Part shown: piece after piece, positions 43,343 through 59,846 of the stretch
Position numbering within the stretch: the stretch's first letter is position 1
How the letters are laid out: the number at the start of each line of letters is the position of its first letter
Assembly (NCBI GenBank): GCA_020054675.1
Contig: JAIHAL010000002.1
Coordinates: 268,042 to 332,041, forward strand
Direction of reading: 5' to 3'
Source of the DNA: Oscillospiraceae bacterium
Lineage (GTDB): Bacteria > Bacillota > Clostridia > Oscillospirales > Ruminococcaceae
DNA length: 64,000 nucleotides
Made by a program: the position numbers and the translations under genes
Notes under the pieces: generated by a model
Database searches by the model: none
What the model was told of the DNA's origin: nothing
What the model saw: only the letters and a program-made list of their open reading frames with translations

Positions 43343-43369
43343 AAAAATGCACCCGCTGGGTGCATTTTT
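43343..43369. terminator. Bidirectional intrinsic terminator
   Basis: AAAAATGCACCC (43343-43354) pairs with GGGTGCATTTTT (43358-43369) around GCT. Confidence 0.75.
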
Positions 43370-43695: not shown

Positions 43696-43764
43696 CTATT
43701 TTTTTATACCTTTAGCATCAACCGCATTTTGAATATATTCACGATATTTATTTAGGTCGCTCAT
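43696..43764 (-). pseudogene. 22-residue frame after the defence operon, probable truncated gene
   Basis: ATG at 43764 with AGGAA upstream gives MSDLNKYREYIQNAVDAKGI plus two lysines and a stop. It looks like the N-terminus of a larger protein cut short. It lies 55 bases after the radical SAM gene on the same strand, so it may be a lost eighth member of the operon or a small peptide. Confidence 0.3.
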
Positions 43765-43819
43765 ACATTCCTGATGTCAGGGTTTTGAGTGTAAATTTCC
43801 CGATTGTGATTTCCACTTT

Positions 43820-45832
43820 TCACTTAACTTCTTTCCGATAAACCTTTTGCAGCAAAGCAATAATTTCCTCAATTTTATCAAGCATAATTTCACTTGCAAT
43901 TTCGTCTTTATTTTGTGACCTTAGGACTTCTCTCAACTGTTTAGATTTTTGATATAAGCGCTGTTCAATTTTCTTTTCATCACACTCAAGGCCTAATCTC
44001 ATAATATTCTTTAATTCAGTATCCGAAATTGCATTAGCCAATCTATAACGTAATGCGATATGCAAGCTTCGGGTGTCTAAAACAATCCTCTTTAAACTTT
44101 TTTGTGCCTTATATAAAGCGTCGAAAACATTTGTATGTAGATATGGTTCATCAATAAAAGCGCGAATTATATCGGTAATAAAAACAGTTCCTTGTAGTTC
44201 AAGCATGCCTAGAAGACAAGAGTACTGTGTATATTTTGAATTAATTACATATTTTAGGAGCTCCTTATATAGAGTTGAAAACTCAAACTTAATATAATTA
44301 AGCATGTCAACACCAAGCACTTTGATATTCCTTAAAATACTCAGGTAAGATAAGTTATGAATGAACATTTTACGAAGCGTAGGTGTGGTTGCATGCGCAT
44401 AATTCTCCATTGAAAAATCATTTTCTTTTATAAGGTCAACATAACTGGTATAGTTATCTCCCAAAGAACGATAAAGCCGAGTCCACTCTTCAATACGACG
44501 GTGGTTAATCTCCCATTGAGCATATCTCTTTTTTCTATCTTCTATTGATTCACCTTTGCGTTCAACAAAATGTCCACGAAGGCCAAGAAGGTCTTCTGGC
44601 ATAGCGAGGTTTTCTAAAAATTCCTCAGCAGTGGCTCCAAAATCGGCCTCAAAAAAAGAGCGAGTAGAAACTCCCTTACCTTGTGTTGGAATTAACATCC
44701 TTTGTACTGCACGGAGATATTTTTTATTCCAGTGCGTACCAACAAAAGACCTATCGGTCGCGTTTAATGGAATATATTTCATCGGGAATGAAAAGATATG
44801 CACCTTCCCGTCGTGTCCATATTTAGCATTTAACTCATCGCAGAAGTCCATAGAAATCTTCATGCGATTGAACAAGTCTTGTGGCGTGTCAGCACGGTAA
44901 TGCTGTCCTTTACCTGTGAAATCTTCACCATTATAAAGTATATAGTTAGATAAATGTTTAATGCCGTTTTTGGCACAAAGCTCTAATGCTCTTTTATATT
45001 GCTCTTCATCCTCAATATGGTCAAATGCTATTCGAGCAGGATTAATTGCAAGTTCGCCAAGTCGTTTAGCTTTATGCTCGTTGAGCAATTTTGCATCTAA
45101 CCCCTGGTTAAAGTCAACATAGCGTTGAAGAGGTTTTCCGGTGCGTGGGCTTGGATAAGTACAACCCTTTCCAAACCCTAATTCTATTAACTCATCCACA
45201 ATAAGGTCAAATTTGTTTGATCTTAGGACATTATTATCCATCAAAAGCAAATTTCGTTTTGGTCCAAAACGTCTATCTATTTCGGCAATTTGTTCTCGAA
45301 TTGAGATGTATGGCACATACTCAGGCTCCAGAGTTTGCACTGCGCAAAATTGGCACTTCATGCCACAGCCACGTGTCGTGTAAAGAAAATAAGCATCTGT
45401 TACCGGATATTTATATTCTATATCATCTAATATATCATAGTCAGGTGTCAGGCAGTCAACGCACTCTTCGCCAGGTAAACCAAGTGTTCCTTTGCGATTA
45501 AGCAAACCCTTAACAAGCTTAATTGTTGGAAAAGTCTTGTGAAACAATTCCGGCATGAGAGTGGCCATAATACCACCTACAAAAACCATATGTTGGTCCT
45601 TTGCAACCGTAAGAGCATATTCTATACTCTTTTTAGTTTCCTCCCATTCAAAGGTAAATAGTGTTGTAACGTAAACTCTATCCCATCTTTTTTTCGCTAA
45701 TTCGTCTGGTAATTTACCTTTTGCAAAAACCACATAATCACCTAATTTTTTATGAAAAGTCGAAATTTTCATCAACCCCAAAGGTGGATATTTATTTGCG
45801 TAATTTGGCTCTATTAATAGAATGTCTGCCAT
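43820..45832 (-). CDS. Radical SAM protein with B12-binding-like N-terminus, defence operon
   Basis: A 670-residue protein. The N-terminus (LLIEPNYANKYPPLGLMKIS; later VFVGGIMATLMPE) resembles the cobalamin-binding domain found before some radical SAM domains. The [4Fe-4S] motif is CGMKCQFC near residue 156, followed by a TIM-barrel region (LLLMDNNVL, NQGLDAKLL). The last 250 residues are helical and not recognised. It abuts the NERD-helicase gene without a gap, so it is the last full gene of the operon. The enzyme class is clear; the substrate is unknown. B12-dependent members often methylate unreactive positions. Confidence 0.85.
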   Translation of the reverse strand: MADILLIEPNYANKYPPLGLMKISTFHKKLGDYVVFAKGKLPDELAKKRWDRVYVTTLFTFEWEETKKSIEYALTVAKDQHMVFVGGIMATLMPELFHKTFPTIKLVKGLLNRKGTLGLPGEECVDCLTPDYDILDDIEYKYPVTDAYFLYTTRGCGMKCQFCAVQTLEPEYVPYISIREQIAEIDRRFGPKRNLLLMDNNVLRSNKFDLIVDELIELGFGKGCTYPSPRTGKPLQRYVDFNQGLDAKLLNEHKAKRLGELAINPARIAFDHIEDEEQYKRALELCAKNGIKHLSNYILYNGEDFTGKGQHYRADTPQDLFNRMKISMDFCDELNAKYGHDGKVHIFSFPMKYIPLNATDRSFVGTHWNKKYLRAVQRMLIPTQGKGVSTRSFFEADFGATAEEFLENLAMPEDLLGLRGHFVERKGESIEDRKKRYAQWEINHRRIEEWTRLYRSLGDNYTSYVDLIKENDFSMENYAHATTPTLRKMFIHNLSYLSILRNIKVLGVDMLNYIKFEFSTLYKELLKYVINSKYTQYSCLLGMLELQGTVFITDIIRAFIDEPYLHTNVFDALYKAQKSLKRIVLDTRSLHIALRYRLANAISDTELKNIMRLGLECDEKKIEQRLYQKSKQLREVLRSQNKDEIASEIMLDKIEEIIALLQKVYRKEVK

Positions 45833-47464
45833 TTAGCAAGTCCTCTCACTTTCTTCAAAATTCAAAACGTATAAATAAAACCTAGCCCTGGTATGTGCTG
45901 TGTAAAGAGTAGCACGAACACTTTCCGTTTTCGGTGCATTTTTATATGTATGATTAATATATATCACTATATCTGATTCAAGCCCCTTAAAACTTTGTAT
46001 CGTTCTATAGGCAATAGAATTATCTGTAAAAATATATTCATCACTGAGCTTTAATCCTCCTACTAAGTTAGTTTCACTCAGAATAGAATTCTCCTTCTTT
46101 CGATTACTCAAAATAACAATCTTTTGTGGTTTAACTCCCTCTCTATGTACTAATTTGTTAATAACAGAATCAATAAATGCTATGGCTTGTTCTTTTCGTG
46201 TGAATTTTCGAGAATCAGGTTCTACCCCTTCAATTTGATTAGCAATAGTATCGAGCCCTAAGTTTGTCTGTTCTTGGGCATACCTATAAATGTTCGCTGT
46301 ATTCCTAATGTTATAGCGCAATACGAATGGTGGGGTGTCAATGAAAAACTTGTCACCAAAATCCCGTTTGAAAATATTTTGGCTCTCGTCGTATAACACA
46401 TATAGCGAACCATTATCTTTCACCATTAAATTAGAACAAAAAGCCCAATCTTCGGTAAAATCTTGCGCTTCATCGACAATTACTAAATCATATCTTGGTA
46501 GGTTTGTCAAGCTACAAAATAATTCACTATATTCCTTACAACCGTTTTTTTCAGGCGCAGTTGCAACTTTATTTCCGAGAAGTAAATAAGCATATGAATC
46601 AATATTATAACAATCGGCATTATTATTTGAAATAATAGCTGATACATGATCAGCTAAAGCTTTATTATAGCAAAGGTATAGTGCTTTACCACCGCTCTGT
46701 ACACACCGTATCACTTTTTTTATTCCGATCCAAGTCTTACCGGTGCCTGCTCCTCCAACAATAAACGCTCTCGGATAATGCGCCAACAAGTCAATAACAG
46801 TATCTTGTATTCGATTTATTTCGATAAGTTCTCTTTCTTTATCTTGAATAAGAGCACCTGCTGAAATGGATAATGCAATACGTTTATTGATTACGCTGAT
46901 AAACTTTTTCTGAGCGTCAGGAGAAAGAAAAGATGATGACCCTCTACGTTGTGCTTTAAAGAAACGAAATATCTCTATAATTCGCTTTTGCAAGTTACCC
47001 ATCCCTAATAAATCAATAGTAGTCTCTAATGGCGACCCAACTGTAATAGGTGCATTTATCGAATAATTTGGAAAGGCAACAGCACATCCGTATACACCAG
47101 GAAATTGAGCTTCTACTTCCTCTTCATAATATTTTTTAAAGAAGCGCATGCTCTGTTCTGCTTGTTCATAAGGGGAACGTTTTAGTTTACGTTCTCCGTC
47201 GTGGTCGACCAAAAACCACAAGCCGTCTTCCACCCTTATACCCGTACCGCCTTTCACCTCAACGCATAAAAAACCATAATCTGGGTGAAAAATTAAAAAG
47301 TCACATTCGCTATCTTCTCTCACACCATTATTCGTTGAATACCATCTTACAGAATAGAATACATGGTATTTATCTGATAACTGTTCTTTACAAGCATTAA
47401 AAAATTTCACTTCAGAGTAGGCGTGGTAAGTTTCAGGTATTTGAGTAGGATGCATGATAGCCAT
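45833..47464 (-). CDS. NERD nuclease-domain SF1 helicase
   Basis: A 543-residue protein. The N-terminal NERD domain has the PD-(D/E)xK-like pattern ECDFLIFHPDYGFLCVEVKGG cut short here as ECDFLIF...EVKGG (about residues 53-73). The helicase part has Walker A VGGAGTGKTWIG near 235, Walker B VIVDEAQDF near 330, and a UvrD-like end with AHTRARFYLYVL. Such proteins could unwind and cut DNA. ATG at 47464 fits GGGAGG; the frame opens at 47470. Two bases separate it from the DrmB-like gene. Confidence 0.87.
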   Translation of the reverse strand: MAIMHPTQIPETYHAYSEVKFFNACKEQLSDKYHVFYSVRWYSTNNGVREDSECDFLIFHPDYGFLCVEVKGGTGIRVEDGLWFLVDHDGERKLKRSPYEQAEQSMRFFKKYYEEEVEAQFPGVYGCAVAFPNYSINAPITVGSPLETTIDLLGMGNLQKRIIEIFRFFKAQRRGSSSFLSPDAQKKFISVINKRIALSISAGALIQDKERELIEINRIQDTVIDLLAHYPRAFIVGGAGTGKTWIGIKKVIRCVQSGGKALYLCYNKALADHVSAIISNNNADCYNIDSYAYLLLGNKVATAPEKNGCKEYSELFCSLTNLPRYDLVIVDEAQDFTEDWAFCSNLMVKDNGSLYVLYDESQNIFKRDFGDKFFIDTPPFVLRYNIRNTANIYRYAQEQTNLGLDTIANQIEGVEPDSRKFTRKEQAIAFIDSVINKLVHREGVKPQKIVILSNRKKENSILSETNLVGGLKLSDEYIFTDNSIAYRTIQSFKGLESDIVIYINHTYKNAPKTESVRATLYTAHTRARFYLYVLNFEESERTC

Positions 47465-47466
47465 AA

Positions 47467-49356
47467 TCAATCCTCCCAGAAACCGATAAGTTTCTCTTGT
47501 TTCTGTTTATCAAAATAGCCACAGAGATAGCTTCGGTCTAGATCTTTATTAAAATGCTGGCATGATACCTCGTTTAAAAACAAACATCCAGCGCAAGACT
47601 TTTCTTTGTCAATACAAATTGGGTCGAAAATACATTTTTTTGTTTTTTCCTTTGCATGCTTCAACCATCGATCAAAATGCCCCTGAAAAGCGCTGTATAA
47701 CGCTCCCATATTAAAACCTTGTGAGTTTGAGCAGTATATAAATACAGCAGGGATATTTGGTAAAATATATTCTGATAGCGAACTCTTGTCTAATCCGCAT
47801 ATCTCGGATGCTTCATTTATCAAGGCGTGTGAGATACTATGTATTAGGGTATAAACCTTTTTAGTGATTATCCCATAGGAATCGTGTTCATCAATATGGG
47901 AAAATGGAGTAATTCTATCAAGCCGCACTCTATCTAAAAACCACATTTTTATTCCATAATCGCTCATATCCTGTGGTAAGTCCTCGTTTTGAATTAGATT
48001 ATTGTCAAGCAACCAGTTTAAAACCTTTCGACGATCCAGCTCAAATAATACACCTTCAGTCTCAAGACGTGTTGCATATATATTCTTCTTGTCCATTTCC
48101 TGTGGAAATCCGTGCAGCTTAACTCCTTCCAAACATTCACGTTCTTTTCGAGTATATCCATAAGCCGCAAATACAACGGGAACTCCAGAGCAGATTTGAA
48201 CTTTGGAAAAGCCCATCTTTTTTGAAATGCCAATATAATCAGGCTTAATTCCATCATTGACAATTTCTGCATCGTTTTCAGCATCCTCAAGCGAGAGAAC
48301 AACTTTTGCATTAACAAGTTCGTCATATTCTAGGATCTCTTCAGCAATAGGTTTAATGTCATCAGAATGAATTATTGAAAGACCTTGGCTGACTCTTTCG
48401 ATAGCTTCAAAAATTTTTCCACTTGGATTTGACCGGCGTTTGGCATCCAAAACCATATTAATAGTAGTTTCATCCAAGCCACCAAGTCTCAAAGCTTCTG
48501 CTTCTTTTTGTAAAGATATTTCGAATTCATCTTCACGGGTTACATGCCCATTAGCAATAATTTCAGCATATTCTTTTTGTGGTATCAACTCTAAATATTG
48601 ACCAATAACCACCTTTTCCCCACGATTTTCATCCTCATTATCCAAGAATACATCTTTCCTTTTATCAAGGAGATCGATTATTGAAAGTGTAAATGGAAAA
48701 AAATGCGACGAATCAAGAGCTGGTTTGATATCAAGCTTTGATTTGCAATCCGGGCAGTAAAACGGAAGGTCAGCCTTTTGCCCACACTTTTTACAAACAA
48801 AGTCTATGCCGCTTCCACGACGAGTCATGTATTTTGTGCCATGTTCTTTGTTACGACATTTAGGTACAAAAATACCATCTGCATACCCACATTTACAAAA
48901 CCGAATCATTCTAAGCTGTGTCATATGCTTTCCACAAACATCACATGGCTCATGCTCGCGCCGCTTAAACTCGTCATAACTATAGTACTGACGAACACGA
49001 CCGCAGGAGTTGCAAACAAATACCCAAGGCTTAACCGATGTAACAATAGCCCTTTCCTGTTCACTAACTTTTGGAGTCAGAACATAATAATTATCCTCAT
49101 TTATAACCGATGAAAAATTAACAACTGATGCCGGTCCATCCGGACTATTATTTTTAAATTCATTCACACGCTGATTCACTACACGGAGTAACCGCCGATT
49201 ATTTATACCTGTTAGATGGACACTATTCCATCTGTCAACGTGAACGGCATATGTAATACCTCCTCCGCTTTGTGTAAAGTCTACCCAACTTCCCGGCAAA
49301 TATTTATACAACGCTTGGTGGACTCCGCGACTCATTGTATTCTTATTAGATGGCAT
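47467..49356 (-). CDS. drmB: DrmB-like DUF1998 protein
   Basis: A 629-residue zinc-rich protein. The N-terminal third has several Cys pairs (CNSCGRV, CDVCGKH, CKKCGQ, CPDCKSK). The C-terminal DUF1998 region has Cys clusters (CIFDPICIDKEKSCAGC). The start SRGVHQALYKYLPGSWVDF fits DrmB of the DISARM anti-phage system, which forms a complex with the helicase DrmA. It follows the DrmA-like gene by 12 bases. Similarity to known DrmB is judged by features, not alignment. Confidence 0.83.
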   Translation of the reverse strand: MPSNKNTMSRGVHQALYKYLPGSWVDFTQSGGGITYAVHVDRWNSVHLTGINNRRLLRVVNQRVNEFKNNSPDGPASVVNFSSVINEDNYYVLTPKVSEQERAIVTSVKPWVFVCNSCGRVRQYYSYDEFKRREHEPCDVCGKHMTQLRMIRFCKCGYADGIFVPKCRNKEHGTKYMTRRGSGIDFVCKKCGQKADLPFYCPDCKSKLDIKPALDSSHFFPFTLSIIDLLDKRKDVFLDNEDENRGEKVVIGQYLELIPQKEYAEIIANGHVTREDEFEISLQKEAEALRLGGLDETTINMVLDAKRRSNPSGKIFEAIERVSQGLSIIHSDDIKPIAEEILEYDELVNAKVVLSLEDAENDAEIVNDGIKPDYIGISKKMGFSKVQICSGVPVVFAAYGYTRKERECLEGVKLHGFPQEMDKKNIYATRLETEGVLFELDRRKVLNWLLDNNLIQNEDLPQDMSDYGIKMWFLDRVRLDRITPFSHIDEHDSYGIITKKVYTLIHSISHALINEASEICGLDKSSLSEYILPNIPAVFIYCSNSQGFNMGALYSAFQGHFDRWLKHAKEKTKKCIFDPICIDKEKSCAGCLFLNEVSCQHFNKDLDRSYLCGYFDKQKQEKLIGFWED

Positions 49357-49368
49357 TACTCGTCCCTC

Positions 49369-52300
49369 CTATTTCATCTCGACGATAAGTTGCTGGTCAG
49401 TATCACGAAGGCTCAACATTACTTTAAAATAACAATGATTGAAAACCTCAGTAATATATGCGTTCCCATCAAAGGAACCATTTTTTAAGTTATCAACTAT
49501 TTTGTCAATCAATCTGTCGATTGTCTGCCTGTATAGTTTTCCTACTGAACTATCATCGTCAGAACACTTGTAAACTCCATAAGCATGCCTCTTCAATTCC
49601 TCAGAAGAAATATTTCCAGAAGTCAAGGCCATCTTTAAATTTGAATACTTACTGATATCAGTCATACCCGTTTTATATTTTAACAAGTAGAGATAGTGAT
49701 TAAGAAATAGACTAGAGATAACCCCCGGCAAGGTATGTTCTACCGCTTTTGTAGCCCAACGATTTATCGATACAGAGTCAACTAATATATCTTTATACTC
49801 ATGAAATTTGTTGAAATTTTTAAGATAGCTTCGATCTTTTTCCCGAGTTGGACGAATAATATCAATAACGATGCCGGTATGTTTCCTTCCTACACGCGAG
49901 TATGCTTGAATATATTCAGCAGTGTTGCCAGGAATTCCATAGAAAAGCATTAAGTTAAATCTATCAGCATCAACACCGTGAGAAATCATGCTTGTAGCAG
50001 CAATCATATTAAAGTCAATTCCTTCTATCACACTTTCAGCATTCTCAATAGTTGATAATGTGGACCTGACTTCCTGAAAAGTATCATCGCCAGTCATTTT
50101 TTTAGCAATCAAAGGTTGAATATCCTCATCAATAAGTTCCGTATTGATCGGGTCTTCTAATGCCTGCAGTACCCGATTACTTTCAAGTTTTACATTGTTA
50201 TACTCAAGAATTATCCAATATTCTTCCAGTAGTTGCTTTACTTTTTCTATACGTTCTTCTTCCGACCCAGAAATTTCAATTCCTGTAAAGCCAAGAACCT
50301 CTTGTGGGTTTTTATACAGATTCCAAACAACTCGCTTTAGATATTGGAGTGAGTAAGCCACACTGTTTACAATTGCTTTACCAAAAGGAGCATACCCAAT
50401 AATAATCCTGCCAATGTCATTTTTATCGACAAACGAATAAAAGTTATGGTCAAGATAGGGGGAAGCAGACGGAAAACGAATGGCTCCCTTCCAATACAAA
50501 TGTTTAGCTTGTTCAGCATAAGCTGAAATTGTGGCTGTCGCTCCAATTACTTTTATACCTCTATTGCAACCTGAAAGATTCTTAATGAAATACTCAAATA
50601 GTGTTTCATAATGAGAAGCATAAGCTCCTAATGACTCACGAATAAGGTGCAATTCATCCTGTATCATTAAAGTTGGTGCCGGGTCTTTCATCGTCACTTT
50701 TTTATAATCTGCAGGGTCGCACTGACAATCATAAACAAGGCATTTAGTTTTAGCTGTAAACCCATGTTTTGGGCATTCAAATTCAGCACCATAAAGAATG
50801 TTGTGAAAGTTCGAGTTAAAGCCGAGAGCTGTCATCTTATCTACTGTCGAAATGATCACAGATGGTAAATATCTGTATATATCGTTATCCACTAAGTAAA
50901 GCGGAATAATACCTTGTGATAAACATGTAGAATTATCACAAGTATGCCTTAGTGAATTAGCCTGAGAGTCATAAACAACATGAACAGTTTTATTACCACA
51001 GAACGGACAAATATCGATTAATCGATATTTCTCATCTATCTCATCAGGAGATAGTTCCATCAACGTCTTTTGAAGGTCTTTATCAATGTTATTTGGAGTA
51101 TTGCCATCACCAACATAATACCCAAGACTGAATGGACTACCACTAATTTGATTAGCTTGCCGAATTATCTCAGCCGTTGCAAGAATATTAGCGACACGCT
51201 GAACCTGTTGCACAGAAAGCAAGCGGAGAGGGTATTTTAAAAGAGCGGTAACTCCATAGTTCTTACCGCGTAAACGGTCAAAAAACAAATTGAAAACGAG
51301 AATCCCTAAGAATGCCTCAGTTTTACCGCCACCAGTAGGAAAATATAGGATATCCACATCATCGGTTTTTGCTTTGTTTTTTATGTCATCATCGAGCATT
51401 AAATCTTGCTCATGTGCTACAATGTCAAGAATTAATGAAACTATAAAAACGATTTGAAACAAACGCCAACTATCATAGCCTTTATTTTTTGCGGAATCTC
51501 TGAAAGCTTGATTCATATAACGAAAGGCGTCATTAATCATATTGTATTTGTTAATCAATTCTATACCAGTGGCAAAGCGCGTAATTTCTAACTTGAAATC
51601 ATCAATTTCTTTTCTAAACTGTTTCACACCATTTGATGTAAGAGAACTGCATCGCCTGTCAAAATCTGCATTCCATCGTTCTAGTTCTTTTTGCATCTCG
51701 TTGTGGATGCTTTTTAGTGTACCGATTGGATTATTAATTAAATCTTCAAATTTGATTGCCATCTTGTCATTCGTTTTTAAGCGATGCTGAACAAAGCAAG
51801 GAACATGGGTTGTTTGTATCTCAACATTTTCCTTGTCGTAAATCACATTGCAGTTGTTTCCAAGTGCATAAACCTCTCTATCATATTTATAGTCATCATT
51901 AAAATAATCCAATTCGAAAGGCTTGAACATAGTATTCAGACACTTGACCTTTAATCCTGAATTAAAGAGCGTGCTGATTCTGTACTTATCCGTTTTAGCT
52001 GCGGTTTGACCGTTACCTGCGGTTTCATCATCCCAAGGAGTCTCGTTGCTTAGAGCAACAGTCACATTTAGATAATCATCGCAACCTTTCAGGTCAACAC
52101 TAATGGAATAATCGAACCGGAGAAACATGTCAAATTCCTCGCGTATCGTCTGCTTTTTAATATAAGTATTCCATGCATTCTCAGTAAGTAGGTCATCTAT
52201 TTTAACTTTATCTCTGAATTGACAAGATAAAATATTAGGGCGTTTTTTTGCCTCACTGCAAAGAGTATCAACTTGCCTTTTTATCTCTTTGTAAAAACAA

Positions 52301-52824
52301 GATTCTTTAGGCACACTCCCACAATCAAATTTAGGGTTGTATATATCTTGAATTTTTACCTCAACAAAAGCATTGTCTCGGTCAATAGCTATTTTCTCGT
52401 ACACCGGGAGTAGTTGAACCTTGTGGGCTTTCATCTCAGCAGTAAAACTACCAACTTTGAATGCTTCAGCGAGCGCATTAAAATCTGTAAATCTTAAGTC
52501 AGTAAAAGTAGACGTAAAATTTTTCAAAAAAAATGCGCGTTGCTGGTCAAGTGTTGGCAAAACTCTAAAAAAGAAATACCCTTGCGGATATATCCGTAAA
52601 ACAGCATGGTCAATATCTTTTTTAGGAATTCGAAAATCAACGCTAATTTGTTTAATCAATACACTCGAAGAAAAGCTATCCTCAGCGCTTCGTGGAGATA
52701 GTTTCCCAACAAAAATACGATCTTCAGGATTGTTAAATAACCACTGTTCTTTGTCAGTACCAGAAATTGCTGCAACAAATCTATCAACAATATTTTTGGC
52801 CAATATTTCTCTATTGTTCGCCAT
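49369..52824 (-). CDS. drmA: DrmA-like SF2 helicase
   Basis: An 1151-residue helicase. The Walker A is in YFPTGGGKTEAFLG near residue 493, the DEAD-like box is DELHLIRE near 718, a zinc cluster CPFCGNKT...HTCDNSTC lies between, and motif VI is EYIQAYSRVGRKHTG near 970, preceded by ISHGVDADRFNLM. The TGGGKTEA form and the size match DrmA of DISARM, which binds DNA ends and blocks phage replication. The first 450 residues are unrecognised. It overlaps the beta-helix gene by 14 bases. Confidence 0.85.
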   Translation of the reverse strand: MANNREILAKNIVDRFVAAISGTDKEQWLFNNPEDRIFVGKLSPRSAEDSFSSSVLIKQISVDFRIPKKDIDHAVLRIYPQGYFFFRVLPTLDQQRAFFLKNFTSTFTDLRFTDFNALAEAFKVGSFTAEMKAHKVQLLPVYEKIAIDRDNAFVEVKIQDIYNPKFDCGSVPKESCFYKEIKRQVDTLCSEAKKRPNILSCQFRDKVKIDDLLTENAWNTYIKKQTIREEFDMFLRFDYSISVDLKGCDDYLNVTVALSNETPWDDETAGNGQTAAKTDKYRISTLFNSGLKVKCLNTMFKPFELDYFNDDYKYDREVYALGNNCNVIYDKENVEIQTTHVPCFVQHRLKTNDKMAIKFEDLINNPIGTLKSIHNEMQKELERWNADFDRRCSSLTSNGVKQFRKEIDDFKLEITRFATGIELINKYNMINDAFRYMNQAFRDSAKNKGYDSWRLFQIVFIVSLILDIVAHEQDLMLDDDIKNKAKTDDVDILYFPTGGGKTEAFLGILVFNLFFDRLRGKNYGVTALLKYPLRLLSVQQVQRVANILATAEIIRQANQISGSPFSLGYYVGDGNTPNNIDKDLQKTLMELSPDEIDEKYRLIDICPFCGNKTVHVVYDSQANSLRHTCDNSTCLSQGIIPLYLVDNDIYRYLPSVIISTVDKMTALGFNSNFHNILYGAEFECPKHGFTAKTKCLVYDCQCDPADYKKVTMKDPAPTLMIQDELHLIRESLGAYASHYETLFEYFIKNLSGCNRGIKVIGATATISAYAEQAKHLYWKGAIRFPSASPYLDHNFYSFVDKNDIGRIIIGYAPFGKAIVNSVAYSLQYLKRVVWNLYKNPQEVLGFTGIEISGSEEERIEKVKQLLEEYWIILEYNNVKLESNRVLQALEDPINTELIDEDIQPLIAKKMTGDDTFQEVRSTLSTIENAESVIEGIDFNMIAATSMISHGVDADRFNLMLFYGIPGNTAEYIQAYSRVGRKHTGIVIDIIRPTREKDRSYLKNFNKFHEYKDILVDSVSINRWATKAVEHTLPGVISSLFLNHYLYLLKYKTGMTDISKYSNLKMALTSGNISSEELKRHAYGVYKCSDDDSSVGKLYRQTIDRLIDKIVDNLKNGSFDGNAYITEVFNHCYFKVMLSLRDTDQQLIVEMK

Positions 52825-53890
52825 GAGTTGCCCACCCCTTTTCCTTTAATCGTTTATATATAAATTCAGGCTTCAATCCAAGATTTGATATAAGTTGTTC
52901 AAAAATCCAATCGTAAAGCTCTTCGCTAAGTATGTCGCCATAATTATGAAGAATATTAAGTGCCATCAACAGCTCCGAATAGTTGTTAACTGTGCAGATT
53001 ATGCTATCAGAATTACTATATAGTAGATTTGTAAAATGTTGATCAAGCATAATAAACATTTCATCGACCTTTGACCAATTTCGGAAGTGGTCTGAGTTAG
53101 CTATTTCAGATAGCCAGATTAATTGAACAATATTTTTGCATTTATCTAAAGAATGGCAACTCAATTCTACTTCTTGCAACACAGCTTTCCAACGTTTAAA
53201 CTTTTCTCTTTCCTCATCGTCATGTGCGCTCGATATAACAAGGTCTAAATATCCGCAAAAGTCGTTTTCTTGCTTGAAACTCTTTTCACCTATTTGGATA
53301 AGGTTTGCTTCAGTACCTGTCCCTATAAGCTTATCCGTAATATGATTGCTCTCTTCCGATTTTTGAGTTGAATCTTTTATAATTACGGCTTCTTCGCCAT
53401 TATCCAGATCTAACGGCTCGCCAGTAAAAAGTACAGGTGAACAAAGTACTCCAGCTCCAAATACAGTTTCTCCGCAAATAATTGCCTTATTGCTTTCTGC
53501 AGTATTATCAATTTCAATGGTATGAGAAACAAGAATATTGCTTTCTGCTATAATTGTTTTGGCCTTTATTTCTTGAGCTGTTATTCTACTGTTTGTTTCA
53601 ATATTTATGGCTATAATTTCCTCAGCCCATATTTCTCCATAAACAGTAATCGTGTTTGCCTTACACTTGCCAATACAGATGAATCTACCTTTAACATCAA
53701 TCTCATATGCTTCAACATCACCGACAACGATTAAATCAAAAAGCGCCGTTATTTTCCCTTTGCATTTAATATTTGATTCAACTATATAACTGGCCTTAAA
53801 TATTAAATCATCACTATCTATGCTATGTGGTACAATAAACCTCTCTCCTGAAGTAAAAACACCTTCTGTCTTATCGTCATATGTTATCAT
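52811..53890 (-). CDS. Beta-helix (bactofilin-like) protein of the defence operon
   Basis: A 359-residue protein. Residues about 20-150 are short repeats rich in Ile, Val and Gly (KGKITALFDLIVVGDVEAYE; KGRFICIGKCKANTITVYGE), the pattern of a parallel beta-helix as in bactofilins and polymer-forming proteins. A linker and a helical C-terminal half (about 215-355; WKAVLQEVELSCHSLDKCKN) follow. It overlaps both neighbours by 14 bases, so it is translationally coupled to the two helicase genes. It may form a scaffold or filament. Confidence 0.75.
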   Translation of the reverse strand: MITYDDKTEGVFTSGERFIVPHSIDSDDLIFKASYIVESNIKCKGKITALFDLIVVGDVEAYEIDVKGRFICIGKCKANTITVYGEIWAEEIIAINIETNSRITAQEIKAKTIIAESNILVSHTIEIDNTAESNKAIICGETVFGAGVLCSPVLFTGEPLDLDNGEEAVIIKDSTQKSEESNHITDKLIGTGTEANLIQIGEKSFKQENDFCGYLDLVISSAHDDEEREKFKRWKAVLQEVELSCHSLDKCKNIVQLIWLSEIANSDHFRNWSKVDEMFIMLDQHFTNLLYSNSDSIICTVNNYSELLMALNILHNYGDILSEELYDWIFEQLISNLGLKPEFIYKRLKEKGWATHGEQ

Positions 53891-55871
53891 GGTTTTTCAC
53901 CTCTGGTATAGATTGTCTCAGCAAATCTAAATAAATTGATTCACCCTTAGGTGCTGATAGAATTATGGTTAATTCGTCCTTTGCCCTCGTACAGCCCGTA
54001 TAAATAAGATTTATATTTTTTTTAAAGGCATCAAGTTTATCAGGTAACTGCTCTTTTGGAGCTAGCTCAAAATCTTCTAAAGTCCTTACGTTTTCATGTG
54101 TTCCTAAAGGACGCAATCCTGCAAGAACTACAGCTCTAAAATCAAGTCCAAGAGAACCCTCTATCGAGGCTACTGTAACTCCTCGACGCGAACCATAAGT
54201 TATTCCATTTGAGTAGCCTTGATATAAAAATGCTGGGGATTCCCACCCATTTGCTTGAAAGTATTGTATAATATATGGTCTAAGTCTATAATAATGTGTT
54301 TTCCATCCTTTTGTTGTATATTTCGCACATTCATTAAAGAGAATAATAGCAATATCAACTTCACTTAAGCCTTTCTTTTCAATAAGGTTTTTTACTGCAT
54401 CACCGATGGCGGTTGCCTCTCCAATATTACTATACTCACTTAGCTCAACTAATGTAGGAGCATTACCTGGGCGATATGCAGTTCCTCGTAGAAATAATTC
54501 TGGATCTTCCGAAAAGTCAATGCCCAATGTTGACCCCAGTGTTTTTGCCGCCGAAACGAATCTGTCAATTGCATCATTTATTGGTTTGGAGTTACGGTAA
54601 TTTATTTCTATTGTCAGCGTTTTTCCACGGTATTCTGGGTAAGCGTCACCACCACCTTGCCAGGGTGCCTTGCCGTGTTTAATGTTGTTTTTTACATCTT
54701 GTGATTTATCTCCAGCAATGACAAAGAAATGCTCCTCATCTTTTTTACTTTTTAGAAGATTAAAGCAAAATCGGTACCATTCCGGCTTGAAAATTTGAAC
54801 TTCATCAATAAAGATTCCGTAAAATCTCTCCTTGATTCTACCTTGCACCAATGCATTGTTAGCCGCTTCGAACAGTTTGTCATATGAATCATTCTTATCA
54901 TAATAGTAAGATGAAGGTACCGGTATACCATTACTTTCTAATAATGATTTGCATAATGAAAAAAAAGTTGAGCAACGCACATTTCTATCTGTAAATCCTG
55001 CCTGAGCTATTGCCCAAGTGTAATAGTTATTCAGATTCCTGTTGTAACAAGTGATGAGGAATTCTTCACTTGGATTAAGACTTGCTAGCTTAAAACACTT
55101 TGAGATCAATAGTACACTTTTGCCACTACCCGCACAAGCAAGTATTAGCTGGTTGCCTTTTGTAATTCTGTTCACAATGTCTATTTGCTTACTATCTAAA
55201 CGATAGGATTGTACAGCCCTATCAGCTGAATTCAAATTTCCATCATTACCAAGCACTGTTTCTGTTTCGTCAAGGACAACTTTTCGTGGTATTGTGATTT
55301 CAGGGCAAAGCCTCTGGAAGATATTGTTTACTTGCTCTTCCTTAAGTTCATCCGCATTACTCAAATATCTTTTAAGTGAGGTAGCACCTTCTTTGCGTAT
55401 TTGAGTTATTGTATCTTTGAATAGGACGTGTTCTTTACAAAACTGGCGCTCATTTTCGTCAAGATTCAATGTCACTTGATGTTCATCAGCCTTCGGGAAC
55501 ACAAAGCAAATATTAAGCGAAAATCTTAATTTGCTTGATTTATCTGTGAGATAGCGACTCTCTTCGAGCCTTTTGACAATATCATTTTTGAGAACTTCAT
55601 ATATTGAGGGATTGCTAAGAACCTTTATAGTCATCTGAACAGCCAAATCCTGCGCTTCAATAAAACGAAACAGGAGAATCCCTTTACTTACAAGCAAGAG
55701 GTTAAACAGTTCAGGCTTCCCGTCACCAGCGTCCTTTTTTCGTGGATTAATATGTAGCACATAATATGCCATTTTCTCCTCCACAAAAGCCCGCTCAATT
55801 GTCCGAAGAAACGACTTCTCGTCAACAGACAATTCTAATTGCTCGTATTTTTCGGGATAGACCTGTATCAT
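53877..55871 (-). CDS. SF1 (UvrD/REP-like) helicase of the defence operon
   Basis: A 664-residue protein. After a 200-residue N-terminal region of unknown fold comes Walker A ILACAGSGKSVLLIS near residue 242, Walker B GIFIDEVQIFKPEW near 350, LTIEINYRNSKPI near 420, SIEGSLGLDFRAVVLAGLR near 590 and IYTGCTRAKDELTII near 640. This is a UvrD/DUF2075-like SF1 helicase. It overlaps the GHKL ATPase gene by one base upstream. A similar pairing of an ATPase and an SF1 helicase is known in some nucleotide-triggered defence systems, but those have different ATPases. Confidence 0.86.
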   Translation of the reverse strand: MIQVYPEKYEQLELSVDEKSFLRTIERAFVEEKMAYYVLHINPRKKDAGDGKPELFNLLLVSKGILLFRFIEAQDLAVQMTIKVLSNPSIYEVLKNDIVKRLEESRYLTDKSSKLRFSLNICFVFPKADEHQVTLNLDENERQFCKEHVLFKDTITQIRKEGATSLKRYLSNADELKEEQVNNIFQRLCPEITIPRKVVLDETETVLGNDGNLNSADRAVQSYRLDSKQIDIVNRITKGNQLILACAGSGKSVLLISKCFKLASLNPSEEFLITCYNRNLNNYYTWAIAQAGFTDRNVRCSTFFSLCKSLLESNGIPVPSSYYYDKNDSYDKLFEAANNALVQGRIKERFYGIFIDEVQIFKPEWYRFCFNLLKSKKDEEHFFVIAGDKSQDVKNNIKHGKAPWQGGGDAYPEYRGKTLTIEINYRNSKPINDAIDRFVSAAKTLGSTLGIDFSEDPELFLRGTAYRPGNAPTLVELSEYSNIGEATAIGDAVKNLIEKKGLSEVDIAIILFNECAKYTTKGWKTHYYRLRPYIIQYFQANGWESPAFLYQGYSNGITYGSRRGVTVASIEGSLGLDFRAVVLAGLRPLGTHENVRTLEDFELAPKEQLPDKLDAFKKNINLIYTGCTRAKDELTIILSAPKGESIYLDLLRQSIPEVKNHDNI

Positions 55872-57403
55872 TATTTTTTCCCTCCTGACTTTAGCTCTTC
55901 TAAGAATTCGTGATATAGGCTATCAACAGTGGCGCGCTCAAAATTACGTGATAAAACTTCCATCATTGCTTGAATGACTTTTTTTTCTGCTTTTGAAAAA
56001 TTTGAAGGTATGTCTTTCTTTACTCTAAAATTTGTAGATTCATGTACTTCGTCCATAAGCTTATTGAGTTGCTCTACCAAAGCTGTTTTTTGCGCAAGCA
56101 CTTCAACAGGGGCGTTTTTCGGAATAGTATAAAGGTCCCGTTTTGTCGCTTCAAGTCTAGCTGCAACTTGATCTTTTTCAGTAGATGAATGAAAGCCAGT
56201 AGTTAGAACTTCCTCTACCTTAGCTATATCGCGCTCAACTTTTTTAATAGTCTTCTGTATTGGATTGTTTCTAATTTTGGACGCAGCACGAATTTTCTCG
56301 GTTATCTCAGTCCCAATTGTATCTCTTAAGCCAATAGTAAACTCTGAAAAAGTTGTGTTTTTCTCGAAGTCATCTCTTCTAGCATTTGGAATTAAGTTAG
56401 GGGAAATAACATAAACTTCACCTATCGCCCAAGCGTTGAATCGGCTTTCTTTGTAATAAGGAGCGAGTGTGCGTCCGTCACCAATGAGTATATTCCCTTG
56501 TCGTACCCTGATTCCAGAAATTCGCTCGTCGACTAGTGTTCCTGAAAAATTTGTATTTGCGTACCAACCATAAGCAATCATTTTATGACTACCATCATTT
56601 ATTTTAAAGAAGGAGAGACTGAGAATCTCATCTTTTGATACACCTGCACGAGAGTTTGCCTCAAATGTCACCTTATATGGTTTATATACTTGTGAAAGGG
56701 ATTCAAACGACTCTCCAATGAATATTGGGTATTCCGCAATTGCTATTCCATTTTCCAACAACTCTTTTTTTATTTCTCTTCCCCAATAGAATCTTTCTTT
56801 AAAAGGCACTGGTGCAACTTGTGATATGTAATCTTTAACTGTCTCTAAATCCAAAAGTGAAGAAATATCATCAACCTCTTCCATCTTAACAATAAAATAG
56901 TGCGCTGATGATTGTTCTTGCATAACTTTTATTTCGGTTACGGCCTCAATAACGCTCTGCAGATTGTGCTCAGTGCTTTGACCTGGAACTAAAAGGGCTT
57001 TTAATTTATCGCAATCAAAAGTAATTAGCGTTTTTACATTTTCGCCCACCGCAGAGGTACAAAAGCTGAGTCTTTTACAATACGAAAGACCTCCCAAGCG
57101 CCCTATACCGCGAAAGCCACGATTAGTAGTATGTAGTTTGGTGGAATTACCAATATCAAGTAAAGTTTTTCCAACCAAATCTTTCTTGACGCCTGTACCA
57201 TTGTCACGTATAGTAATTTCTCGCCTTGTTCCATCAATAATAATTTCTATACGGAAGTCCTCCGGTTTAATAATACCTTCTGAGAAAGCGGCATCTAATG
57301 AGTCAACCGCATTTTGTATATATTCTCGAAAACAAGACTCTGGCTCACTGTACATGCCGGTAGTCAATGATTCAAGAGTAAATTTGCCTATTTCAATATC
57401 CAT
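55871..57403 (-). CDS. GHKL (Hsp90/MutL-like) ATPase of the defence operon
   Basis: A 510-residue protein with an N-terminal GHKL ATP-binding domain: N-box CFREYIQNAVDSLDAA (residues about 24-39), G1 box RDNGTGVKKD near 75, and G2 box NRGFRGIGRLGG near 100. The rest (Ser/Glu-rich, helical towards the end) does not match Hsp90, MutL or histidine kinases. Such ATPases close as dimers on binding ATP. It could be the sensor or clamp of the system. It follows the HTH gene by 26 bases. Confidence 0.85.
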   Translation of the reverse strand: MDIEIGKFTLESLTTGMYSEPESCFREYIQNAVDSLDAAFSEGIIKPEDFRIEIIIDGTRREITIRDNGTGVKKDLVGKTLLDIGNSTKLHTTNRGFRGIGRLGGLSYCKRLSFCTSAVGENVKTLITFDCDKLKALLVPGQSTEHNLQSVIEAVTEIKVMQEQSSAHYFIVKMEEVDDISSLLDLETVKDYISQVAPVPFKERFYWGREIKKELLENGIAIAEYPIFIGESFESLSQVYKPYKVTFEANSRAGVSKDEILSLSFFKINDGSHKMIAYGWYANTNFSGTLVDERISGIRVRQGNILIGDGRTLAPYYKESRFNAWAIGEVYVISPNLIPNARRDDFEKNTTFSEFTIGLRDTIGTEITEKIRAASKIRNNPIQKTIKKVERDIAKVEEVLTTGFHSSTEKDQVAARLEATKRDLYTIPKNAPVEVLAQKTALVEQLNKLMDEVHESTNFRVKKDIPSNFSKAEKKVIQAMMEVLSRNFERATVDSLYHEFLEELKSGGKK

Positions 57404-57429
57404 TTTAAAAGCCTCCTGATATCATACTA

Positions 57430-57660
57430 TTAGTTGGTATACTTCTCACATTTATCTTCATCAGGCACTATTTCCATGATATCACCTATATCACATTTTA
57501 AGGCAGTACATATTTTCATTAATATCGTGGTTGTCACAGGCTCATCTCGACCAAGCTTGGTTATCACGCTAGCACTGATATCCGCAGCGGCTTGAAGATC
57601 CTTCTTCTTCATTTTTCTATCAATGAGCAGCTTCCATAATTTGTTATAGCTAACAGCCAT
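57430..57660 (-). CDS. Small Xre/YozG-type HTH regulator of the defence operon
   Basis: A 76-residue helix-turn-helix protein (YNKLWKLLIDRKMKKKDLQ, then AADISASVITKLGRDEPVTT). Proteins of this form often precede restriction or other defence genes in Firmicutes and probably repress them. ATG at 57660 is preferred for GAGGTG; the frame is open from 57732. It is the first gene of the operon and has a strong promoter with a palindromic operator. Confidence 0.87.
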   Translation of the reverse strand: MAVSYNKLWKLLIDRKMKKKDLQAAADISASVITKLGRDEPVTTTILMKICTALKCDIGDIMEIVPDEDKCEKYTN

Positions 57661-57683
57661 GATTTTCACCTCAACTAAATACA

Positions 57684-57720
57684 ATGTATACATAATATCA
57701 TATTTTTTCGATAAATGCAA
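57684..57720 (-). promoter_or_regulatory. Promoter and palindromic operator of the defence operon
   Basis: Reading the minus strand, TTGCAT (57715-57720), 17-base spacer and TATTAT (57692-57697) with an extended TG. The palindrome ATGTATACAT at 57684-57693 overlaps the -10 box and the likely start point, which fits repression by the HTH protein. Confidence 0.8.
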
Positions 57721-57782
57721 TATTTTGCACATAATTAAAAGATTTTTGTTGTATTTGCGCGAATATTAGTTCTCATAATACA

Positions 57783-57832: not shown

Positions 57833-58363
57833 TTAATTGCACATATTCAATCTATTTTTCAAAAAATCCTTCGAACCTACGTCAAAAGGCTTAAGGTTGT
57901 GTCCTTGCCGATTCAGCATATCAACTTTAAGCATCATTAATTCCGGAAAAACTTGCATTTCTGCCGACATCTGAAAATAATCATATTCGTTTTCGAGCAT
58001 TTCAAAGAAATCCTCATCGGGGATTAGCAGTTGAGCGGAAAAGTAATTTGCATCAATTTCCCTTCGGTGTGTTTCATATAAAATGGAGCTGCGGTCTGTA
58101 AAAGCGCGAAAACAAGAACCCCTATGCAGCTGGTCGTGCCCCAGTTCATGGGCCAATACGATTCTTTGCTCAACCTCCCCCAAGTTATTATTCAGCACGA
58201 TATACCGGTTTCTTAAAACATAAGCGTACATTCCTTTAATCGAACTTAAATCCATGTAGAAGATTTGTATTCCCAGTTCCTGTGCTATTCTATATGGGTT
58301 GGTTGTCCCACATGAGCGGGTAAGACGATTTGCTTTAATTATAGCGTCATTATCAAATATCAT
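57833..58363 (-). CDS. immA: ImmA/IrrE family metallo-endopeptidase
   Basis: A 176-residue protein with the zinc-protease motif VLAHELGHDQLH near residue 70, and the ImmA-type end (SAQLLIPDEDFFEM). In ICEBs1 and related elements ImmA cuts the repressor ImmR to start excision. The Xre gene lies 33 bases upstream, matching the ImmA/ImmR pair. ATG at 58363 is chosen because AAAGGG fits; an upstream ATG at 58384 is possible. Confidence 0.88.
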   Translation of the reverse strand: MIFDNDAIIKANRLTRSCGTTNPYRIAQELGIQIFYMDLSSIKGMYAYVLRNRYIVLNNNLGEVEQRIVLAHELGHDQLHRGSCFRAFTDRSSILYETHRREIDANYFSAQLLIPDEDFFEMLENEYDYFQMSAEMQVFPELMMLKVDMLNRQGHNLKPFDVGSKDFLKNRLNMCN

Positions 58364-58396
58364 GAACACCATCCCTTTAAGCATATATTATTGCGA

Positions 58397-58804
58397 TTAT
58401 TCTCTTTTCTTCTTTCGTCCGTATTTCTCCTTATTTGCCTTCTTTGCTTCAAAGTATAGCTTTGTTAAAATTTCAAACATCTCGTCCTTCTCATCTTCGT
58501 CAAGCTCCCCGCCGGCAAACAGGGCATCCGCTCCCTGAAGTATTTTTTGTGCCTGACGGTTGCCTATACTGCCGTATTTTTGGGATGCTTCAATCTGAAA
58601 CTGTTCTTCAGGCGTAAACAGGTACTCAAATGAAACACCGAAGGTGTTCATGATATTCTGAATAATCTCAGGTTTGGATGGTGTTCTTTCATTTGTTTCA
58701 TAGTAGCCGTATACACGTTCCGACACGCCTATTGCTTTGCCTGCCTCTGCCTGCGACCAGCCTCTGTCCAAGCGCAGTTTTTTTAATTTGTCACCAAATT
58801 TCAT
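58397..58804 (-). CDS. Xre family repressor (ImmR-like)
   Basis: A 135-residue regulator with an N-terminal HTH (LDRGWSQAEAGKAIGVSERV) and a charged coiled C-terminal region ending in a Lys/Arg-rich tail. It sits beside immA, faces the + strand genes of the element across a promoter region with CGAACA boxes and so is the likely immunity repressor. AAAGGAG precedes the ATG. Confidence 0.9.
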   Translation of the reverse strand: MKFGDKLKKLRLDRGWSQAEAGKAIGVSERVYGYYETNERTPSKPEIIQNIMNTFGVSFEYLFTPEEQFQIEASQKYGSIGNRQAQKILQGADALFAGGELDEDEKDEMFEILTKLYFEAKKANKEKYGRKKKRE

Positions 58805-58827
58805 AGTTAGCAGCTCCTTTCCTGCTC

Positions 58828-58856
58828 ATTATATATTATTGTTCGGAATTTGTCAA
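58828..58856 (-). promoter_or_regulatory. Promoter of the xre-immA operon
   Basis: Reading the minus strand, TTGACA (complement of 58851-58856), 17-base spacer and TATAAT (complement of 58828-58833). A CGAACA box (58840-58845 on the other strand) lies in the spacer, so the repressor may control its own gene. Confidence 0.82.
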
Positions 58857-58884
58857 TATGTCGAACATAAATTTCTAAAAACTA

Positions 58885-58914
58885 TTGACAGCGAACATAT
58901 GTGTGTATTATAAT
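58885..58914 (+). promoter_or_regulatory. Promoter of the rightward element genes
   Basis: TTGACA at 58885-58890, 18-base spacer and TATAAT at 58909-58914. CGAACA at 58892-58897 lies in the spacer as in the divergent promoter. Confidence 0.82.
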
Positions 58915-58967
58915 ATCCATATCAGAACAAATTATGCGAAGGAGTTGCATATTTTTTGCCTTCAATA

Positions 58968-58982
58968 CGAACAAAATGTTCG
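58968..58982. promoter_or_regulatory. Palindromic operator CGAACA-AAA-TGTTCG
   Basis: A perfect 15-base inverted repeat. Single half-sites of the same sequence occur at 58840-58845, 58862-58867 and 58892-58897. They are probably Xre repressor sites. The half-site resembles the Firmicute LexA box, but the spacing here is one base longer. Confidence 0.68.
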
Positions 58983-59079
58983 GAATACCAAAATTGGGGC
59001 GATATAATTATTCGTCAAACATATTATATCAAAAAAGATGTACCAAAAATAGGACAATAAATATAAGGCAGGTGAGCTT

Positions 59080-59217
59080 ATGAAAATTAGAGTGAAATGT
59101 CCGCTATGCGAAAAAAGGATTCTTGACGCAAGCCAAGACGCGAAAGGAGAGATTGAGTTAAAATGCAAAAAATGCAATAAGGTTGTTAAGATAACCCTTG
59201 GCCAAAAAATAAAATAA
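59080..59217 (+). CDS. Small Cys-rich (Com-like zinc-ribbon) protein
   Basis: A 45-residue protein with two CxxC motifs, CPLCEKR and CKKCNK, and ATG after GGTGAG. It resembles the short zinc-ribbon proteins found near the start of many Firmicute integrative elements and phage Mu Com. It is the first gene after the rightward promoter. A link to translation control is possible. Confidence 0.68.
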   Translation: MKIRVKCPLCEKRILDASQDAKGEIELKCKKCNKVVKITLGQKIK

Positions 59218-59235
59218 TGTAACATACCGAGCAAC

Positions 59236-59346
59236 GGAGCCGAGTGTGAGCTACCAAATAGCCGGATGAATGCTAAACGAGAGTTGGCATATCATCCGGT
59301 TATTTTCGTTTAGCGGACACTCGGCTTTTCGTTTTCACTTGGCTCC
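59236..59346 (+). ncRNA. Structured RNA with a predicted pseudoknot before the sigma-like gene
   Basis: Interleaved pairings: GCCGAGTGT (59239-59247) with ACACTCGGC (59317-59325); CCGGATGA (59262-59269) with TCATCCGG (59292-59299), extended by ATGC/GCAT; and GCTAAACGA (59272-59280), in the loop of that hairpin, with TCGTTTAGC (59306-59314). A second pairing GGAGCCGAGTG (59236-59246) with CACTTGGCTCC (59336-59346) excludes the first. The closing stem is followed by TTTTCGTTTT, as in a terminator. Confidence 0.65.
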
Positions 59347-59374
59347 CTCGGCAAAACGAGAGGAGTTAAGAAAA

Positions 59375-59770
59375 ATGAAAATTGAGTACACTTACCGCTT
59401 CAACAATGAAACCATAACCATTGAAGTCACAGAGGGCGATTATGACATTCTTATTGAGCTTGACCGAATTGAACGCAATGTTAACCAGAAAGAAACCCGA
59501 CGTCATGCTTCCCTTGACGCATTTAACCTTGACGGCAACCTGTTTCCATCAGAAGAAGATGTCGAAGCCGAATGCATCCAAAATGAAGAGTACATAGCGC
59601 TGCATAAGGCCATTAATCAGCTTTTGCCCCAGCAGCGGGAGCTAATCAAAAAGGTGTTTTTTGAGAATAGAACCATTGTCAGCATTGCCCGTGAGGAAGG
59701 AGTAGGAGAAAGCGCAATACGCGACCGTTTAAGCCGCATTTATATAAAACTTAAAAAATTTTTGAAATAG
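59375..59770 (+). CDS. Sigma-70 region 4-like regulator of the element
   Basis: A 131-residue protein. The N-terminal half (YTYRFNNETITIEV, GDYDILIELDRIERNVNQKE) is typical of small sigma-like factors of integrative elements. The C-terminal half has a sigma region 4 helix-turn-helix (SIAREEGVGESAIRDRLSRI). It may switch on later element genes. ATG at 59375 follows AGGAG; the frame is open to 59270 through the RNA element. Confidence 0.85.
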   Translation: MKIEYTYRFNNETITIEVTEGDYDILIELDRIERNVNQKETRRHASLDAFNLDGNLFPSEEDVEAECIQNEEYIALHKAINQLLPQQRELIKKVFFENRTIVSIAREEGVGESAIRDRLSRIYIKLKKFLK

Positions 59771-59846
59771 ACCCTGCGGATTTGCCTCTGCCGTGAGTTA
59801 CCTATAGAGAGCACAACAATACCGCTCTCAGGAAAGGAGTCAGAAA

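Follow-up and report, generated by a model that had tools for sequence, protein, structure and literature searches.

A minus-strand operon at positions 43820-57732 of a 64,000-nucleotide stretch of Oscillospiraceae bacterium DNA (contig JAIHAL010000002.1; the window) combines the DrmA/DrmB core of the DISARM defense system with a radical SAM enzyme and a GHKL ATPase. The same gene set recurs in unrelated hosts, and the radical SAM/GHKL pair also accompanies engines unrelated to DrmAB, between which it has moved. The operon is read here, with about an even chance of being right, as a DISARM-like restriction system in which the radical SAM/GHKL module would provide the self-mark and a NERD helicase would act as the nuclease. 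The novelty of the gene set and of the module is probable. The set is named by no PADLOC, NCBIfam, or Pfam model and by no paper found, and the literature searched, with subscription papers and most preprints outside it, nowhere describes radical SAM with GHKL as a defense or modification module. If the modification reading is set aside, what remains is a DISARM-like system without a name of its own, together with a mobile radical SAM/GHKL module that links four defense-like operon families and is undetected by PADLOC.

Gene content of the operon

The cluster consists of eight open reading frames (ORFs) separated by consecutive gaps of 26, -1, -14, -14, 12, -4, and 0 bp, followed by a gene remnant. 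They are listed from the first gene.

57430..57732, minus strand: P0008, Cro/C1-type helix-turn-helix (HTH) regulator of the HTH_26 family, the operon's first gene (Pfam HTH_26, 3.9e-21)
55871..57403, minus strand: P0007, GHKL (HSP90/gyrase B-type) ATPase, first copy (HATPase_c_3, 6.8e-10)
53877..55871, minus strand: P0006, superfamily 1 (SF1; UvrD-like) helicase (Pfam UvrD, 2.6e-7; PADLOC NERD+UvrD candidate, 3e-27)
52811..53890, minus strand: P0005, beta-helix followed by a helical domain (AlphaFold2 model, predicted local distance difference test (pLDDT) 80)
49369..52824, minus strand: P0004, DrmA-like superfamily 2 (SF2) helicase (PADLOC DrmA, 4.4e-163)
47467..49356, minus strand: P0003, DrmB-like DUF1998/MZB zinc-domain protein (PADLOC DrmB, 4e-52; MZB, 5.4e-6)
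45833..47470, minus strand: P0002, NERD nuclease fused to an SF1 helicase; alternative start ATG at 47464
43820..45832, minus strand: P0001, radical SAM protein with a Rossmann/cobalamin-domain-like N terminus and a helical C-terminal extension
43714..43821, minus strand: remnant of a second GHKL gene, about 35 codons with an internal stop, directly behind the radical SAM gene

The original prediction, made from the sequence of the window, described seven adjoining minus-strand genes behind an HTH gene as one operon, and the spacing of the eight ORFs (gaps of -14 to +26 bp) and their intact catalytic motifs bear this out. The PADLOC matches likewise support its DrmA-like and DrmB-like proteins, and the GHKL ATPase, SF1 helicase, beta-helix protein, NERD-helicase, and radical SAM protein that it named are confirmed by family matches and, for P0005, by the AlphaFold2 model. 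The intact motifs are the N-box EYIQNAVD, DNGTG, and GFRGIG in P0007, GSGKS and DEVQ in P0006, GGGKTE, DELH, and QAYSRVGR in P0004, and the SF1 helicase motifs of P0002. The NERD nuclease-helicase matches Pfam NERD at 5.3e-12 and PADLOC RTasNERD-Hel at 3.4e-71, and its NERD active-site residues ECDF...EVK are identical across four loci. Both core proteins score under the cut-offs of the NCBIfam models (P0004, 360 bits against 950 for DrmAS; P0003, 84.5 bits against 240 for DrmB_fam). A PDB sequence search with P0007 returned weak HSP90/HtpG matches only, and the likeness of GHKL proteins to chaperones was not used as evidence for a mechanism. P0005 matched no family above cut-off in PADLOC, Pfam, or NCBIfam. 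In a fold search it had no match below 1e-3; the matches with E values of 0.004-0.5, a mixture of left-handed beta-helix enzymes with unrelated chains, are uninformative.

Comparison with known defense systems

In DISARM and in the window operon alike, the gene for a DrmA-like helicase precedes one for a DrmB-like DUF1998 protein that is not fused to it, and DrmA shows 31% similarity over its full length to archaeal DISARM. The operon lacks the methyltransferase (DrmMI or DrmMII), DrmC, DrmD (class 1), and DrmE (class 2), and has instead the GHKL ATPase, SF1 helicase, beta-helix protein, NERD-helicase, and radical SAM protein. The absence of a DNA methyltransferase and a PLD nuclease had been predicted, and no operon gene has a family match to either in PADLOC, Pfam, or NCBIfam; none matches DrmD or DrmE. 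BLAST and a motif scan also detected no DNA methyltransferase in the window between 40 and 64 kb or in three related loci introduced below (L001, L002, and L074). DISARM was rejected as an assignment on the four missing components, with the DrmA and DrmB features present.

A YprA-family helicase is shared with the defense classes ARMADA, BRIGADE, and TALON, the last of which also has a NERD nuclease (PMC12458937). The BrxHII-like helicase, PglX-like methylase, TPR-CSD, and TBP genes of these classes are absent from the window operon. ARMADA has OB-CON-DUF1998 fused to a helicase with a C-terminal Vsr nuclease, whereas P0003 is a separate protein and P0004 has no Vsr match. The tested features do not fit, and all three classes were rejected on the definitions of PMC12458937. 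The text of that paper makes no mention of radical SAM, GHKL, or beta-helix proteins and leaves "many uncharacterized DISARM-like" classes open, and the DrmAB half of the window operon falls among them.

The PbeABCD system (CxC ABC-ATPase-DndE; PMC10853773) has a radical SAM gene with GHKL in loci L043 and L044 and a radical SAM gene alone in L045 and L065. Its defining genes PbeA, PbeC, and DndE are absent from the window operon, a PbeA search of G000 was also without a match, and this assignment was rejected as well. The marks of PbeABCD are phosphorothioate or cytosine methylation, and no radical SAM gene is named as a component (PMC10853773). The relation to Dpd is through the DGQHR/ParB proteins related to DpdB and DndB that occur with radical SAM/GHKL modules; the window operon has no DGQHR gene, and reading of the loci, without a model search for DpdA, revealed no such TGT-like gene. 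PADLOC assigns the window's gene set to no named system.

Recurrence and conservation of the operon

Operons with the DrmA/DrmB core and radical SAM/GHKL, as in the window, are termed type A. When 84,980 species genomes were scanned with a DrmA pattern, three relatives with 74-78% identity came up. L001 is from a Desulfovibrio metagenome-assembled genome (MAG), L002 from a Bacillota MAG, and L003 from a contig assigned to Parabacteroides by binning. The seven genes behind the HTH gene are all present in L001 and L002, in the order of the window and 44-86% identical to it; the HTH gene is missing there. L074, from a viral-contig collection, begins inside the SF1 gene and extends, in the order of the window, through the radical SAM gene (47-91% identical) to a second GHKL gene. 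It was found by the radical SAM profile; P0004 alone as the query found no close DrmA relatives in viral contigs. L003 has the first five genes, from GHKL up to a point inside DrmB, where the sequence switches to a gene with an Mrr-type nuclease domain that is 92% identical to the gene behind the second GHKL gene in L074. Either a deletion or, at 3x coverage, an assembly error accounts for this junction. The predicted gene set is therefore found together in unrelated hosts (L001, L002, and L074, with L003 truncated).

With DrmA as the query, plasmids yielded canonical DISARM or other DrmAB arrangements; the GHKL search led to SNF2-ParB-DGQHR operons. Another unnamed DrmAB arrangement is seen in L158 (6380-13076), L159, and L010 (10362-16241), where DrmA-DrmB pairs without an adjacent DrmC stand behind a protein matched to or annotated as sigma-70-like; L010 also has a cytosine methyltransferase.

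Nonsynonymous divergence (dN) from the window is 0.05-0.19 for the enzyme genes, and synonymous divergence (dS) is saturated. The gene order is kept at 44-91% identity in other phyla, which together with the low dN and saturated dS indicates conservation of the operon beyond chance. The first GHKL ATPase is 81-86% identical to its counterparts in L001, L002, and L003. P0005 is the fastest-evolving part of the operon, with 45-50% identity and a dN of 0.44-0.50 versus 0.05-0.19 for the other genes. These values suggest strong constraint on the enzyme genes and rapid divergence of P0005, which would suit a part that faces the phage.

An intact second GHKL gene lies directly behind the radical SAM gene in L002 and L074, and L001 is without one. 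The remnant in the window aligns to this gene in tblastn with 96% identity over 23 residues and 91% over 11. Because the gene is intact in L002 and L074 and decayed in the window, the ancestral operon probably had eight genes behind the regulator.

The radical SAM/GHKL module accompanies other engines

Members of the P0001 family (~36-52% identical over the core) also adjoin a GHKL ATPase in operons without DrmA. The GHKL gene is on the same strand within 300 bp in 31 of the 42 loci of this family, and some of the others end at a contig edge. Type B operons run from a large protein with a sigma-region-4 match through PbeA (PADLOC 3e-243), PbeC (6e-226), and a DndE-like protein to the radical SAM gene, sometimes followed by GHKL (present in L043 and L044; absent from L045 and from L065, at the contig end). 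Type C operons encode a ~370-aa protein, a HerA-like ATPase, GHKL, and radical SAM (L046, L047, L048, L053, L067, L069-L071, L082, L092, and L095). The name NurA was not adopted for the ~370-aa partner, as its sole basis is the annotation of a Marinitoga virus homologue; the Pfam search was empty, and the group is therefore called the HerA-type operon. Two of these loci, L070 (5286-7489) and L071 (12327-14562), have two GHKL genes with two genes between them, one for an ATPase-like protein starting MKISI/MKISIENFKSI and one for a protein of 273-295 aa. Type D operons combine ParB-like proteins, a DrmD/ZorD-type SNF2 helicase, and often a DGQHR (DndB/DpdB-type) protein with radical SAM and GHKL, and are found on rhizobial and other alphaproteobacterial plasmids (L006, L007, L008, and L055) and in many integrated elements. 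The module is infrequent, with 7 strong matches in 398 genomes of the window's phylum and 5 in 297 and 4 in 296 in two other phyla.

For 43 radical SAM proteins, a tree was built by a quick maximum-likelihood search without bootstrap, with supports from the Shimodaira-Hasegawa-like approximate likelihood ratio test (SH-aLRT). The four type A sequences form one clade (100% SH-aLRT), nested in a supported clade with L075 of type D (95%) and L043 (97%) and L044 (100%) of type B. The supported branches force at least four label changes for type C, three for type D, and two for type B, showing transfer of the module between restriction engines. The regulator also seems to move between systems, because a homologue 64% identical to P0008 heads the PbeA/PbeC operon of L164 (5687-5965); another, 56% identical, lies upstream in L003. 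The original prediction of a distinct DISARM relative stands: the operon combines the DrmA/DrmB core with the absence of the methyltransferase and DrmC, occurs in unrelated hosts, and is assigned by none of the models searched. It describes only half of the operon, because the radical SAM/GHKL half is shared with PbeA/PbeC/DndE, HerA-type, and SNF2-ParB/DGQHR operons that have no DrmA.

This sharing bears on a rather improbable alternative, in which the operon is a modification-independent DISARM relative whose DrmAB discriminates by DNA structure, reading 5' single-stranded ends, and whose radical SAM and GHKL proteins are accessories, perhaps with a host function. DrmA-DrmB pairs without an adjacent DrmC exist (L158), and DrmAB binds 5' overhangs via its trigger loop (PMC9142583). 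The radical SAM gene is conserved like DrmA (78-86% identity, dN 0.08-0.14) and recurs with unrelated engines, both of which argue against this alternative.

Fold of the radical SAM protein

The CxxxCxxC motif of P0001 lies at residues 156-163 (CGMKCQFC), and Cys156, Cys160, and Cys163 are invariant and form the only conserved cysteine columns in 21 sequences. The Pfam Radical_SAM score of 29.1 bits is just under the cut-off of 29.5, with the CxxxCxxC cluster and a partial TIM barrel present. Assignment as a methylthiotransferase (MiaB/RimO) was rejected because the three cluster cysteines are the only conserved ones, and the three further cysteines of a second Fe-S cluster are not conserved in the 21 sequences. 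The radical SAM profile had no match among PDB sequences. The AlphaFold2 model (pLDDT 86.7; predicted template modeling score 0.80) has its best fold matches over residues 1-430 with AprD4 (Z 18.3), MgmA (17.3), and TsrM (15.6), and also matches OxsB, CysS, and TokK. These enzymes share the fold and the single CxxxCxxC cluster; P0001 differs in its low identity to them (12-17%) and its extra helical C-terminal domain. The Pfam B12-binding score of 15.3 bits is below the cut-off, and the N-terminal fold of the model matches cobalamin-domain enzymes. In fold, the modeled P0001 resembles the cobalamin-binding radical SAM enzymes.

Viperins are radical SAM antivirals, and their structures appear in the P0001 fold list. 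They bring up an alarm/effector arrangement, judged unlikely, in which GHKL, on sensing DNA or protein of an infecting phage, would activate the radical SAM enzyme, with DrmAB and the helicases as a parallel DNA-attack arm. The output would be a toxic or chain-terminating nucleotide, as made by viperins, or a modified host macromolecule. GHKL ATPases are common switches, and the module mostly adjoins DNA-attack engines, as this arrangement would have it. The viperin structures stand far down the list (Z ~8), well below the best cobalamin-domain folds (Z 14-18), and the PP-loop exclusion and ParB-adjacent phage homologues described next point to a modification slot.

Evidence bearing on DNA modification

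Twenty-two Pbe loci of the window's phylum and L065 were surveyed, with PP-loop ORFs called by motif scan. A radical SAM gene is present in 7 of the 23 loci. None of these 7 has a PP-loop sulfurtransferase-like ORF, versus 10 of the other 16 (Fisher p = 0.0075). Five of the PP-loop ORFs were scanned; one is a clear DndC, and the others match PAPS-reductase-like models, three with weaker DndC similarity too. Nine genomes with the module, including one assembled as a single contig, also lack DndC. Four of the seven Pbe radical SAM genes belong to the P0001 family, and three are distant relatives (L049 7800-9056, L174 11733-12965, and L179 13708-14883; 25-26% identical to P0001). Two of the three have no NCBIfam match, one has weak B12-radical-SAM matches, and all may be independent recruitments.

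DGQHR/ParB-family proteins (DndB and DpdB) go with the known Dnd and Dpd DNA-modification modules (PMC10853773, PMC12839542). In 11 of 19 phage-contig loci with a related group of the radical SAM enzyme, its gene comes immediately after a ParB-like gene, versus 2 of 44 for more distant homologues. The ParB proteins beside them match ParB families and a phage DNA-methyltransferase family, and DNA methyltransferases were read from the sequence near some of the phage loci. On phage contigs L093 (9411-11194), L099, L101, L104, and L113, the ParB-like gene overlaps or touches the radical SAM gene close to terminase genes, with a phrog_9298 match in L093. The ParB-like and radical SAM genes are a candidate phage DNA-modification pair. 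Replacement of the PP-loop gene, ParB-family partners, the phage context, and the cobalamin-type fold together suggest that the module modifies DNA. The original prediction had left the choice between a modification-independent and a differently modified DISARM relative, and the second is now favored.

In a different reading, the radical SAM protein would repair or edit DNA during restriction, like spore photoproduct lyase, or strip phage DNA modifications for DrmAB, and no self-mark would be made. Type A operons are rich in helicases, and phage modifications are a known barrier to restriction, the similarity being at class level only. A demodifying enzyme aimed at phages would be oddly placed in the phage copies beside ParB without GHKL, and the replacement of a DndC-type gene is left unexplained, which makes this use of the enzyme very unlikely.

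Proposed mechanism

The favored DISARM-like restriction system with a radical SAM/GHKL self-mark can be laid out in four steps. DrmA and DrmB would form a helicase that loads on foreign DNA, as extrapolated from the solved DISARM DrmAB complex, in which a trigger loop keeps DrmAB inactive until opened by 5' overhang DNA (PMC9142583). DISARM DrmAB is proposed to sense methylation and is held to be repressed by it, and DrmC is dispensable (PMC9142583). The P0006 SF1 helicase and the NERD-helicase would then extend unwinding, with the NERD domain cutting DNA in place of DrmC, a step suggested by the domains and the conserved active-site residues. The radical SAM enzyme would put a noncanonical mark on host DNA, with the GHKL ATPase as a switch or clamp, and so stand in for the methyltransferase of DISARM or the sulfurtransferase of Dnd/Ssp, a role suggested by partner exchange, by mutual exclusion, and by the phage context. 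C-methylation would be the plainest chemistry for the mark, since several of the nearest folds of the modeled P0001 are cobalamin-dependent methylases. Lastly, the fast-evolving P0005 is the likely phage interface, or may be an adaptor or sensor.

A wider proposal is tentative, with somewhat less than an even chance. Radical SAM plus GHKL would join Dnd/Ssp phosphorothioation and Dpd deazaguanine as a third transferable module for DNA modification, making an undescribed and probably radical-generated mark that serves as the self/phage cue for at least four unrelated engines (DrmAB, PbeA/PbeC/DndE, HerA-type, and SNF2-ParB), and a distant phage enzyme would disguise phage DNA. If the module marks DNA, it would represent a new self/non-self chemistry and would explain DrmAB and PbeA/PbeC engines without methyltransferases or DndC.

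Several points weigh against a DNA-marking system. Type A is known from five loci, one of these truncated. The window and L001 are without an intact second GHKL gene, and the window copy of the operon may be impaired. The exclusion value of p = 0.0075 comes from a motif scan and takes no account of shared ancestry, and three of the seven radical SAM genes behind it are distant (25-26%). Most type A, B, and C loci showed no ParB protein. The substrate of the radical SAM enzyme could be RNA, protein, or nucleotides rather than DNA.

Genomic surroundings

The window from 57833 to 64000, beside the operon, is a prophage or related element with the operon at its edge. It holds an M78 (IrrE-like) peptidase, and a Cro/C1 repressor with a divergent promoter pair of perfect consensus, together with a sigma-70-like gene, an HNH gene, a phage-type SNF2 helicase, and a Pam3 gp33-like gene. 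These neighbors raise the possibility of a maintenance or conflict operon of a mobile element, not aimed at phages. The window copy adjoins the repressor/M78 pair and phage-like early genes, and L074 comes from a viral-contig collection. DrmA and DrmB match defense-system models, and defense systems often ride on prophages, which leaves a maintenance role extremely unlikely.

One further feature lies behind the operon.

43343..43369, minus strand: terminator-like hairpin, a 12-pair stem followed by a T-rich tail (pattern scan only)

A second radical SAM gene, unrelated to P0001, is located at 37912-39375 of the window (Pfam 9.7e-26) among chromosomal-looking genes.

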